From an uncultured Bacteroidales bacterium (GTDB taxonomy: Bacteria; Bacteroidota; Bacteroidia; Bacteroidales; Muribaculaceae), in contig CADBNR010000035.1 in assembly GCA_902796035.1 (NCBI GenBank), forward strand, positions 1 through 38,414: 38,414 nt of DNA, given 5' to 3'. A program made the translations under genes and the position numbers. Numbering within the stretch: the first letter of the stretch is position 1; each line of letters starts with the position of its first letter. A model generated the notes under the pieces. It made no database searches, had not been told where the DNA came from, and saw only the letters and a list, made by a program, of their open reading frames with translations. Shown here in pieces: positions 29,130-36,423 of this stretch.

Positions 29130-29252
29130 GACAGGAGAACAGGAGAAACCGGAGTGTCAACACAATAAACCTCCTGTTTCTCCTGTTCTCCTGTCAAAAA
29201 ACCAAATATCCATCCGTAAACCTCCTGTTTCTCCTGTTCTCCTGTCAAAAAA
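29130..29252. repeat. AGGAG-rich inverted and direct repeat, copy 1
   Basis: A 25-base arm rich in AGGAG (29130-29154) is complementary, with one mismatch, to 29171-29195, forming a long hairpin with a 16-base loop. The right arm plus flank is repeated exactly as a 36-base direct repeat (29166-29201 and 29217-29252). Within the arms ACAGGAGA recurs with a period near 8-9. The last copy ends seven bases before the DUF1573 ATG. A related copy is at 34151-34267. Confidence 0.8.
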
Positions 29253-29259
29253 ACAAAAT

Positions 29260-29643
29260 ATGAAACGCGCAGTGAAAATATTTATGTCCGTGGTGTCGAT
29301 ACTGCTCCTGTGCGGGGCGACAAAGCCGGAATCGGGCATACTGCACTTGGTGAACGACACCATCGACCTCGGCGACGTGCCGCAGAACAGCGTCGTATCG
29401 GCTCCGTTGCAGGTGACCAACACCGGCTCCGCCCCGTTCGTCATCACGTCAGTGCGCACCAACTGCAGCTGCAGCGTGGGAAGCTATCCGCATGAGGAGA
29501 TAGCCCCCGGCGACACAGCCGAGATAATAATAAAATTCTCGGCCCGGGACAGACGCCCGGGCCGAGTTCACAAGTATATATATATCAGATCCACATCTTC
29601 GGTGCCCCGAAGCGTGGCTTTCCTGAAAGCCAACGTAAAGTAA
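29260..29643 (+). CDS. DUF1573-family secreted protein
   Basis: This 127-residue protein has a signal peptide (MKRAVKIFMSVVSILLLCGA). The DUF1573 (ASH-like Ig fold) signature is clear: IDLGDVPQNSVVSAPLQVTN, TGSAPFVITSVRTNCSCSVG, and EIAPGDTAEIIIKFSARDRR followed by PGRVHKYIYIRST. The CxC in NCSCS corresponds to the usual CGC motif. Such proteins are exported in Bacteroidetes and of unknown function. It is a single domain, shorter than many relatives. It stands alone on the plus strand, convergent with the AEC carrier and preceded by the AGGAG repeat with no obvious promoter. An 11-bp perfect stem lies inside the coding sequence at 29538-29566. Confidence 0.8.
   Translation: MKRAVKIFMSVVSILLLCGATKPESGILHLVNDTIDLGDVPQNSVVSAPLQVTNTGSAPFVITSVRTNCSCSVGSYPHEEIAPGDTAEIIIKFSARDRRPGRVHKYIYIRSTSSVPRSVAFLKANVK
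29538..29566 (+). other. Strong hairpin inside the DUF1573 coding sequence
   Basis: CTCGGCCCGGG (29538-29548) pairs perfectly with CCCGGGCCGAG (29556-29566) around a 7-base loop. It encodes part of the conserved FSARDRRPGRVHK segment. There is no T-run after it, so it is not a standard terminator. It could slow ribosomes or stabilise the transcript, or reflect codon preference by chance. Confidence 0.5.
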
Positions 29644-34150: not shown

Positions 34151-34267
34151 GACAGGAGAACAGGAGAAGCAGGAGATCCTGTTGTAATAATACTCTGAAA
34201 ATTTCTTCTGGCTAGAGAACAGGAGTCTAACCTGTGTTGTCTCTCCTGTTTCTCCTGTTCTCCTGTC
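34151..34267. repeat. AGGAG-rich inverted repeat, copy 2
   Basis: Left arm 34151-34175 and right arm 34243-34267 are complementary over 25 bases with one mismatch, and the right arm is identical to 29171-29195. A partial unit (GAGAACAGGAGT) sits at 34215-34226. On the minus strand the unit begins TAGACAGGAG, and its TAG is exactly the thioesterase stop codon. With copy 1 it brackets the DUF1573 and oxalate genes. Confidence 0.8.
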
Positions 34268-35049
34268 TACATTCTCGTGACACGGTCCAGGCGCGCAATG
34301 AGGCCCGGCTCGCCTGTCTCAAGGTTGTTGATGGAGAAATAGGAGGTGAGGTCGTGGTCGGCGCGCCACACCAAGGCATGCTGATCATAGCGCGACTCGT
34401 GCATGAAGGCCAGTTCCATGCGCTTGACACGCGTACGGTCGAAATCCTCCAGCGTGAGGCGGTTCAGCAGCAGCTCGATATACTTCACAGTATTTACATG
34501 CCGGTAAAAGTCGAGGTCGCAGTATTTGAACCTGTATTCGTATGCCGGCGCAGTTGCCACCACGGCGCCCTTCGGCGGCTCGCCGTCATGGTCAATGGGG
34601 AGCACCGGCACATGCTTGCCCTGGCGCGCTATGGGACAGCGGCCCGGCATGGGAAGATCCTCAGGTATCACTAAGTGGGACAGCCCGACTGACTGGCGCG
34701 TATTGTAGTCCAGCACCATCCACACAGCGCGCGAATAGCCCAACGGATTGCCATCCGAGTCCGACACCTGCACTATGCGCTCGGAGAAGTGGCGGTTGTA
34801 GCTTTCTATCCATGTGGTGAGGCTATATTCCTCGTTGACTTTGGGATAGCGTTCCATTTCGAGTGCCAGACGCGACAGCACCCAGCCGCAGCCACGGTCG
34901 GCCATGTCGGGATTGCCGATATGCAGCGCGTTGGCGTGCGCCGTGGATATGTCTATGATTCTGGACGTGAGCAGGGGCAGCGACAGCTCGGCCTCGGCAT
35001 TGGTCTCGCCGGCCGACAGAAAGTATCTTTGAGTCAATTGTGGTGTCAT
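34267..35049 (-). CDS. Acyl-ACP thioesterase
   Basis: This 260-residue protein is built of two hot-dog domains, as in bacterial acyl-ACP thioesterases (FatA/B-like family): N-terminal DRGCGWVLSRLALEMERYPK and YSLTTWIESYNRHFSERIVQ, C-terminal DLDFYRHVNTVKYIELLLN with the conserved His/Asn region. It hydrolyses acyl-ACP to free fatty acid, ending chain elongation. Cytoplasmic. The stop codon comes from the first bases of the AGGAG repeat, so the last residues (DRVTRM) may have been set by that repeat. The start lies inside a large dyad shared with the divergent dGTPase gene, predicting a leaderless transcript. Confidence 0.85.
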   Translation of the reverse strand: MTPQLTQRYFLSAGETNAEAELSLPLLTSRIIDISTAHANALHIGNPDMADRGCGWVLSRLALEMERYPKVNEEYSLTTWIESYNRHFSERIVQVSDSDGNPLGYSRAVWMVLDYNTRQSVGLSHLVIPEDLPMPGRCPIARQGKHVPVLPIDHDGEPPKGAVVATAPAYEYRFKYCDLDFYRHVNTVKYIELLLNRLTLEDFDRTRVKRMELAFMHESRYDQHALVWRADHDLTSYFSINNLETGEPGLIARLDRVTRM

Positions 35050-35088
35050 GGTGCAAAGTTACAAATTTTTGAGTAACTTTGCACCATG
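35047..35088. promoter_or_regulatory. Mirror-image divergent leaderless promoter
   Basis: CATGGTGCAAAGTTAC (35047-35062) is perfectly complementary to GTAACTTTGCACCATG (35073-35088) around a 10-base AT-rich centre. Each arm contains a -7 box TAACTTTG (35074-35081 plus; 35054-35061 minus), four bases, and the ATG of a gene: thioesterase on minus, dGTPase on plus. Both transcripts should start at or near their ATG. No clear -33 TTTG is present on either side. Confidence 0.8.
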
Positions 35089-36423
35089 AGTACAGAAAAA
35101 GCGCCGATGCGCTGGGACCGGCTGATAAGCGACCGGCGGCTGGGCATGGAGGAATACCACGACGAGCGGGTGCATACCCGTTCGGACTTTCAGCGTGACT
35201 ACGACCGACTGATCTTCTCGTCGCCGTTCCGGCGGCTGCAGAACAAGACGCAGGTGTTCCCCCTGCCGGGCAGCATCTTTGTCCATAACCGTCTGACCCA
35301 TTCGCTGGAGGTCAGCTCCGTGGGCCGCTCCCTGGGCCACGAGATAGCACTTGGCCTGCGCGAACGGCACGGCGACTGCTACGGCATATTCGACAACATA
35401 CGCGACATCGTGGCCGCGGCGTGTCTGTGCCACGACCTGGGCAATCCCCCGTTCGGTCATTCGGGCGAAAAGACTATCTCCACCTTCTTCAGCGAGGGAC
35501 CGGGGCTGGAGTTCCGCCCTCTCCTCTCCGACCGCGAATGGGCCGACCTGATTCATTTCGAGGGGAACGCCAATTCGTTTCGGCTGCTGACCCATCAGTT
35601 CGTGGGACGGCGCAACGGCGGCATGACCATGACATACAGCACATTGGCGTCGGTGGTGAAGTATCCCTACACCTCGCTTCATGCGGGTGCGAAGGGTAAG
35701 TTCGGTTTCTTCGAAAGCGAGGATGAGATATATCGCCGCGTGGCCGACTGGCTCGGCATCCCGGAGAAGGAGCCGGGGCTGTTCGCGCGCCATCCGTTGG
35801 TGTACATGATGGAGGCGGCCGACGACATATGCTATCAGATAATGGATATAGAGGACGCGCACAAGCTGCGAATACTCTCCACGCCCGAGGTGACCGACCT
35901 GCTGTTGGGATTCTTCGGCGACACGCAGCGCGCACGCCTGGAAAACGGCATGAAGCGTCTGGACGATCCGAACGAGAAGATAGCCTATCTGCGTTCGGTT
36001 GTGATTGGCGCACTGGTCAGCGACTCGGCCCGCGTGTTCCTGCAGAACGAGGGCACTATACTGCAAGGCGAGTTCCTGGGACAGTTGCTGAACCACATCA
36101 CGCCTGAGCTTCAGGCAGCTTACGCCCGTTGTTCGGACACGGCATGGAAGCGAATATACTGTGCCCGCGAGGTTGTTGACATCGAGATAGCCGGCAACCG
36201 CATCATAACCTACCTGATGAACGCATTAGTGGAGGCCGTGATGCACCCGGAGCGCAACGCCTCGCGCCTGTTGCTGAACATCATACCGGGTCAGTACGAC
36301 ACGCGCAACGAGTCGCCCTACACGCGCCTGCAGTCTGTATTGGATCACGTCAGCGGCATGACCGACGTCTACGCCCTCGACCTCTACCGCAAACTGAACG
36401 GACATTCCCTGCCCGCTGTTTAA
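35086..36423 (+). CDS. dgt: dGTP triphosphohydrolase (dGTPase, HD family)
   Basis: This 445-residue cytoplasmic protein has the HD-domain metal site: His72 in NRLTHSLEVSSVGRSLG and His116-Asp117 in AACLCHDLGNPPFGHSGE. Upstream, RTRSDFQRDYDRLIFSSPFRRLQNKTQVFPL-like sequence (about 30-61) is the dGTPase entry motif. A later YMMEAADDICYQIMDIEDAH supplies the distal aspartate. It hydrolyses dGTP (or other dNTPs) to the nucleoside and triphosphate and so controls dNTP pools, sometimes also limiting phage. ATG at 35086 lies at the edge of the shared dyad, with a -7 box ending four bases before it. Length and motifs are complete. Confidence 0.9.
   Translation: MSTEKAPMRWDRLISDRRLGMEEYHDERVHTRSDFQRDYDRLIFSSPFRRLQNKTQVFPLPGSIFVHNRLTHSLEVSSVGRSLGHEIALGLRERHGDCYGIFDNIRDIVAAACLCHDLGNPPFGHSGEKTISTFFSEGPGLEFRPLLSDREWADLIHFEGNANSFRLLTHQFVGRRNGGMTMTYSTLASVVKYPYTSLHAGAKGKFGFFESEDEIYRRVADWLGIPEKEPGLFARHPLVYMMEAADDICYQIMDIEDAHKLRILSTPEVTDLLLGFFGDTQRARLENGMKRLDDPNEKIAYLRSVVIGALVSDSARVFLQNEGTILQGEFLGQLLNHITPELQAAYARCSDTAWKRIYCAREVVDIEIAGNRIITYLMNALVEAVMHPERNASRLLLNIIPGQYDTRNESPYTRLQSVLDHVSGMTDVYALDLYRKLNGHSLPAV

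Follow-up and report, generated by a model that had tools for sequence, protein, structure and literature searches.

What is a DNA palindrome in which each arm carries both a promoter box and a start codon, and what sets the distance between its two promoters? The question is raised by the intergenic region separating an acyl-ACP thioesterase gene (34267-35049, minus strand, 260 aa, PF01643 and PF20791) from a dGTP triphosphohydrolase gene, dgt (35086-36423, plus strand, 445 aa, TIGR01353 above cut-off, with a rival start ATG at 35107, i.e. Met8), in the whole stretch of 38,414 nt that we analysed, called here the window. There we found an inverted repeat at positions 35046-35089, with 17-nt arms (35046-35062 and 35073-35089) that are 100% complementary and a 10-nt loop. 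An earlier note on this DNA had described perfect arms of 16 bases; the perfect pairing stands, the length is corrected here to 17 nt. Read outward, each arm is GTAACTTTGCACCATGA, in which the -7 box TAACTTTG is followed by CACC and then by ATG. Both boxes were assigned by their sequence, which has the form TAnnTTTG given for the -7 element of the Bacteroidota sigma-ABfr promoter, the -33 element being TTTG (PMC7366714, PMC9723704; these and the third source used below are cited from excerpts). The box of the thioesterase promoter is at 35054-35061 on the minus strand and that of the dgt promoter at 35074-35081 on the plus strand, and a 12-bp gap (35062-35073; like the arms, without strand) separates the two facing boxes.

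Considering the inverted repeats with arms of at least 15 nt and a loop of at most 30 nt, the real window has two, i.e. the dyad and a repeat at 29131-29194, and none was found in 40 first-order Markov resamplings of the window. Within the 2.2-Mb assembly TAACTTTGCACCATG occurs exactly twice, both copies being the dyad arms, and with up to two mismatches it was found in 16 places versus 1 for the reversed control. We rejected a role as an RNA hairpin, since the dyad is upstream of both predicted transcription starts, except for ATGA at each end. The other repeat of the window has 19-nt arms (29131-29149 and 29176-29194); its right arm belongs to a 32-nt unit, CCTCCTGTTTCTCCTGTTCTCCTGTCAAAAAA, at 29170, a second copy of which follows 51 bp downstream (span 29170-29252), immediately ahead of an ORF at 29260.

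The predicted transcription starts are on the A of each ATG (35086, plus strand, for dgt and 35049, minus strand, for the thioesterase gene) because we placed the boxes at -12 to -5, the positions that the -7 box occupies in F. psychrophilum (PMC9723704). A second basis for both predictions is an excess of ATG exactly three nucleotides (N3) after TTTGC: this spacing was found at 17 of the 160 half-sites of the gap-12 class described below (132 of the 160 had an ATG-started ORF within 200 bp), and these 17 are not independent, 8 of them coming from lon/methyltransferase loci. One divergent pair with a gap-12 site, present in two genomes (loci L128 and L184), is by sequence likeness ruvA-like and recR-like, and the ATG of its recR-like gene stands exactly N3 after the box.

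The two start codons differ in how well they are matched among homologues. For the thioesterase, an ATG stands at the matching position in 17 of the 29 other loci of the genus. For dgt, an ATG stands at the codon matching Met8 (35107) in 78 of 79 other loci and at residue 1 in 1 of 79; 52 of the 79 have no ATG from the codon-8 ATG up to the nearest upstream in-frame stop, none of the nine nearest relatives being among those 52. Met8 is thus likely the start of most dgt homologues, and by these alignments translation of dgt from 35107, behind a 21-nt leader, is a strong alternative to Met1. Since the ATG at the Met8 codon is so widely kept, leaderlessness is firmer for the thioesterase than for dgt. 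The earlier note had proposed two start codons and two leaderless or near-leaderless mRNAs: both ATGs are indeed present in the arms, and the box-to-ATG spacing predicts a leaderless thioesterase mRNA, while the dgt half of the proposal is left ambiguous by its strong rival.

To place the dyad among other sites, we defined a class of facing boxes by the pattern GCAAANNTA-N{2,32}-TANNTTTGC (31 gap lengths), in which the letters searched are those of the -7 box plus the flanking C, and used the reversed pattern as a control. The window's genome has 15 such sites versus 0 in the control, with a gap of exactly 12 in 6 of the 15, the window's dyad included. Across the 61 genomes of the genus there are 634 sites versus 21 in the control; the form GCAAANNTA-N12-TANNTTTGC accounts for 178 sites, distributed over 60 of the 61 genomes (reversed control 0), hence for 28% of the total (178/634) versus an expected 1/31, or 3%, which makes 12 bp the commonest gap. 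These counts are not of independent sites, orthologous sites being common to related genomes. The 81 gap-12 sites that we sorted by locus correspond to 44 locus families, and 61 of 80 lie between divergent ORFs according to a simple ORF caller, which misclassed the window's own dyad (represented there by locus L009). On eight contigs of one genome (G135) a single gap-12 site recurs with nearly identical letters; perhaps it belongs to a repeated or mobile element carrying a two-way promoter.

The gap lengths are not restricted to 12. In the ten genomes of the genus considered in full (90 of the 634 sites), 30 sites have gap 12, 11 have gaps of 2-6, 9 of 13-14, 21 of 20-25 and 10 of 30-32, with 9 elsewhere and none at 17-19. 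We counted 102 gap-12 sites, versus 5 in the control, in 118 further genomes of the order; the share of gap 12 in 59 of those genomes is 52/508, or 41/480 without a genome of the same family and one genome with repeat copies, so the gap-12 peak is weaker outside the genus. Of the 508 matches, 71 are listed with their gaps (four listed G135 sites being excluded from the spectrum), 25 of them at 10-14 and 24 at 20-24. A period of about 10 bp is pronounced in both sets even when gap 12 is left aside (genus without gap 12, R=0.55; order, R=0.55; 0 of 20,000 simulations in each case). For the convergent arrangement of the same boxes (196 sites) this phasing is absent (R=0.09, p=0.60, on 75 of the 196 sites), and 4 of these 75 listed sites have gap 12. 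In a sample of the phylum, nine further genomes of the taxonomic class have 48 facing-box sites versus 18 in the control; in 31 genomes of the phylum outside that class the facing boxes (30) are not above the control (26).

As a possible reason for the 12-bp spacing, we considered where the -33 element of each promoter would fall. The survey of single boxes used a genus-type set that also includes five loci of other genera of the family (L275, L276, L289-L291). Among the genus-type single boxes with a T-rich spacer, TTG begins at -23 relative to the TA of the box in 16 of 105, versus a per-position background of 2.3% (p=3e-9), both the position and the T-rich filter having been picked after looking at the data. 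Without the filter the preference is blunter, 25 of 325 genus boxes having TTG at -23 and 19 having it at -22. Elsewhere in Bacteroidales TTG prefers -22 (20/184 versus 10/184 at -23), which would favour a gap of 11. A preference at -22 in the mixed taxa had argued against any interlock; we set it aside once the split by taxon and the T-rich filter gave -23 in the genus and -22 elsewhere. A longer element, TTGnAAA, was also rejected, TTG and AAA at -19 being unlinked in single promoters (1/16).

A gap of 12 puts the G of the opposing GCAAA at -21, and therefore TTGCAAA supplies a TTG at -23. The heptamer TTTGCAA, which is the same sequence on the opposite strand, was found at 87 of 160 half-sites with gap 12, 19 of 68 with another gap and 45 of 299 single boxes; with one site per locus family the excess falls to 41/88 versus 17/64, with p=0.018 only. 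In the window's dyad the predicted -33 contact of the dgt promoter is at 35051-35053 (plus strand), -23 from its TA, where GTG replaces TTG and the G is that of the opposing GCAAA; the predicted contact of the thioesterase promoter, at 35082-35084 (minus strand), is its mirror image. Both triplets are thus GTG at the position preferred in the genus, the consensus being TTTG/TTG. We consider the -33 overlap the best available reason for the 12-bp spacing, supported by these counts and not proven by them; alone, it leaves the gap peaks at 20-25 and 30-32 unexplained.

Taken together, these results make it likely that the dyad works as a two-way promoter for the housekeeping sigma factor of Bacteroidota, with its elements interlocked at a preferred spacing. 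Precisely, two -7 boxes (TAnnTTTG) would face outward 12 bp apart, with the centres of their 9-bp elements 21 bp apart, i.e. about two helical turns. The -33 of each promoter (TTG, from 23 bp before its TA) would fall on the end of the other's -7 box, so that the two promoters probably interlock. These 42 bp would accept polymerase in one orientation or the other, with a single enzyme bound at any moment, and it is plausible that two overlapping polymerases cannot fit there by geometry and hence exclude each other. From the predicted starts on the A of the ATGs, the thioesterase mRNA would be leaderless and that of dgt either leaderless or, if Met8 is its start, provided with a 21-nt leader. 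The sequence itself shows the boxes, their gap, the class across the genus with its peak at 12 bp and its phasing, and the preference of the genus for a -33 at -23, whereas promoter activity, start sites, exclusion of polymerases and the role of the -33 overlap in fixing the gap are inferred. The earlier note's central proposal of two mirror-image promoters is supported: they would be of the sigma-A type, with a predicted +1 at the A of each ATG, and their layout is that of a recurrent class with a preferred spacing. As a general rule, which we hold with slightly less than even confidence, the design of the housekeeping promoter of Bacteroidales would allow the end of a facing -7 box, read on the opposite strand, to serve as its -33, and such promoters would be packed interlocked at a gap of 12 bp, or of 12 bp plus one or two helical turns; the extreme case would be two promoters and two start codons in 42 bp, giving two leaderless mRNAs.

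The extreme layout is itself recurrent. A search of 397 genomes of the family for the double-ATG form, CATNNNGCAAANNTA-N12-TANNTTTGCNNNATG, found it in 17 (control 0). Long reading frames begin at both ATGs in 14 of these; in L278, L288 and L289 at least one of the ATGs has none. The 14 loci represent six gene pairs: thioesterase/dgt (two loci); Lon protease/small methyltransferase (seven loci, L280-L284, L286 and L287); acyltransferase/no Pfam match (two loci, one by family search); radical SAM/SpoU methylase; FKBP/no Pfam match; and DUF4369/WYL regulator. The methyltransferase beside Lon is presumably TrmN6-like; L283 was assigned by family search and the other Lon/methyltransferase loci by likeness of their N-terminal letters. 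When the methyltransferase loci are taken irrespective of gap, Lon is divergent in 16 of 30 loci of the genus, with gap 12 in five (L216, L217, L219, L220, L230), gap 13 in two, gaps 33, 34 and 42 in one each and another arrangement in six; among 29 such loci of the order that belong to other genera and families, Lon is divergent in four, with gap 12 in none. The gap of 12 is hence loosely constrained between orthologues and not strictly kept. In two lon/methyltransferase intergenic regions (L225 and L229) the -7 boxes have apparently crossed past each other, so that each promoter lies close to the start of the opposite gene and is directed across its partner.

The perfect symmetry of the window's arms needs separate treatment. 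The earlier note had set, as a check, that arm symmetry be kept among homologous loci, and this is contradicted at another locus by the lon/methyltransferase dyads, which keep the boxes, the gap and the ATG spacing and lose the symmetry, no more than 11-15 of 21 positions of their arms being matched. The layout therefore does not require the arms to be symmetric outside the boxes, and usually they are not; where such symmetry is present, it may reflect inverted copying, i.e. template switching between the arms, by which perfect arms would have arisen or been kept alike and a neighbour would have received a ready-made promoter and start codon. We regard this origin as possible and rather doubtful; it is compatible with the bidirectional promoter, so that the probabilities of the two do not compete. 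In its favour, the arms are identical at all 6 free positions in 3 of 9 double-ATG loci (the window, L279 and L289) versus 0 of 144 cross-pairings of arms from different loci, and after deduplication the two arms of gap-12 sites agree slightly better than shuffled pairs do (5.61 versus 4.90 of 13, p=0.001). The first of these counts is, however, weakened by its members, since the window was selected for its symmetry, the left reading frame of L289 has only 4 aa and a single one (L279) of the five other double-ATG loci with both frames is perfectly symmetric; the Lon/methyltransferase dyads, without arm identity, also speak against it.

Three further readings concern what the dyad does. Mutually exclusive promoters could act as a metabolic switch coupling fatty-acid release with dNTP breakdown, as the earlier note had suggested. 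Overlapping promoters would exclude each other geometrically, and the excerpted text of PMC12825309 describes steric exclusion at the bidirectional promoters of E. coli, but the same source reports that basal activity at the five E. coli bidirectional promoters tested is too low for competition between polymerases to matter. The gene pair itself is not conserved: the thioesterase adjoins dgt in 1 of 80 dgt loci (L009, 97% amino acid identity to the window's) and is absent beside the other 79 (tblastn, 1e-8; some loci incomplete), and dgt, present beside the window's own thioesterase, is absent beside 29 other thioesterase loci of the genus (tblastn, 1e-8; the search gave a match in 53 of 61 genomes, and 30 loci were examined). 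Among the loci compared, the two genes thus stand side by side in the window's genome and in a single close relative only. The 42-bp dyad is identical in L009 and L277, the surrounding 1.2 kb being 92% identical; with 94/1235 and 95/1238 mismatches to the window, these two probably come from one species or assembly and were counted once, and genome G492, which carries the same dyad, is probably the same as L009. We did not take this identity as evidence of conservation, since no more than 10 of the 294 closest coding bases are changed, which makes it not significant. The same kind of dyad moreover fronts other gene pairs, so that we judge the switch very improbable, and a compact promoter shared by neighbouring genes more likely. 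As to other dgt loci of Bacteroidales, L017, L034, L044 and L066 have facing -7 boxes with gaps of 43, 41, 42 and 44, about three helical turns more than 12, and in Bacteroidales MAGs that do not belong to the family a facing-box site recurs in a single locus family close to dgt, with gap 12 in L030, L033, L050, L052 and L053 and gap 11 in L049 and L065.

The palindrome could instead be the operator of a dimeric repressor or activator governing both genes. Spacing by two helical turns is typical of many dimer sites, and both the 21-bp centre-to-centre distance and the phasing of the class at about 10 bp would suit one; on the other side, the letters searched are just those of the -7 box and the flanking C, 44 locus families are many for a specific operator, and the arm letters outside the boxes vary at the lon/methyltransferase dyads. 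An operator is accordingly improbable, and the single repressor shutting both genes that the earlier note had envisaged is not borne out, the letters of the palindrome outside the boxes not being conserved between sites. A somewhat less improbable reading, still an unlikely one, is that two ordinary promoters abut by chance, each kept by its own gene and with no interlock, the symmetry being consensus plus chance. Consistent with it, the two boxes both fit the consensus, sites with other gap lengths are numerous, the gap varies among orthologous lon/methyltransferase loci and most dyads lack symmetry of the arms outside the boxes. Independent promoters would not be expected, however, to show a sharp peak at gap 12 and a phasing at 10 bp while the convergent control stays flat.

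Compared with known systems, both boxes of the dyad match the -7 consensus of the sigma-ABfr promoter and the spacer is AT-rich; that promoter is described, in the excerpts of PMC7366714 and PMC9723704, as single-direction and with no facing pair at a preferred gap. A search at the level of titles and abstracts, covering few subscription papers, found no description of promoters with facing -7 boxes in Bacteroidota. Leaderless mRNAs are known in the phylum, being 5.5% of the mRNAs of F. psychrophilum (PMC9723704), and in B. thetaiotaomicron about 3.7% of the 5' UTRs are under 10 nt (PMC7366714). As in those leaderless mRNAs, the starts predicted here are at the A of the ATG; what differs here is that a single dyad may give leaderless mRNAs for two divergent genes, with dgt uncertain. 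If our reading is true, the double-ATG loci supply gene pairs in which both members may be leaderless, and on which leaderless translation could be tested in a phylum without Shine-Dalgarno sequences in its mRNAs, the spacing rule (gap 12, period about 10) predicts divergent transcription from sequence in Bacteroidales, and the sites offer compact two-way promoters for use in laboratory strains of gut commensals.

The dyad also resembles the kind of bidirectional promoter known from E. coli and other prokaryotes (Warman, Grainger and co-workers), in which, as far as the excerpts of PMC12825309 describe them, polymerase binds pseudo-symmetrical DNA in either orientation, one at a time, and divergent starts are a few tens of bp apart or less. 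The promoter elements of the dyad have such a pseudo-symmetry. In E. coli a single -10 element is shared, with the starts inside it or to either side, and the commonest distance between starts is 18 bp, 10 and 23 bp being frequent too (PMC12825309); in contrast, the dyad has no single shared element, having two separate and complete outward -7 boxes across a 12-bp gap, with predicted starts 37 bp apart (35049 and 35086), and its overlap would join the -33 of one promoter with the -7 of the other. If this holds, bidirectional promoters would extend from the shared -10 type of E. coli to the -33/-7 promoter of Bacteroidota.
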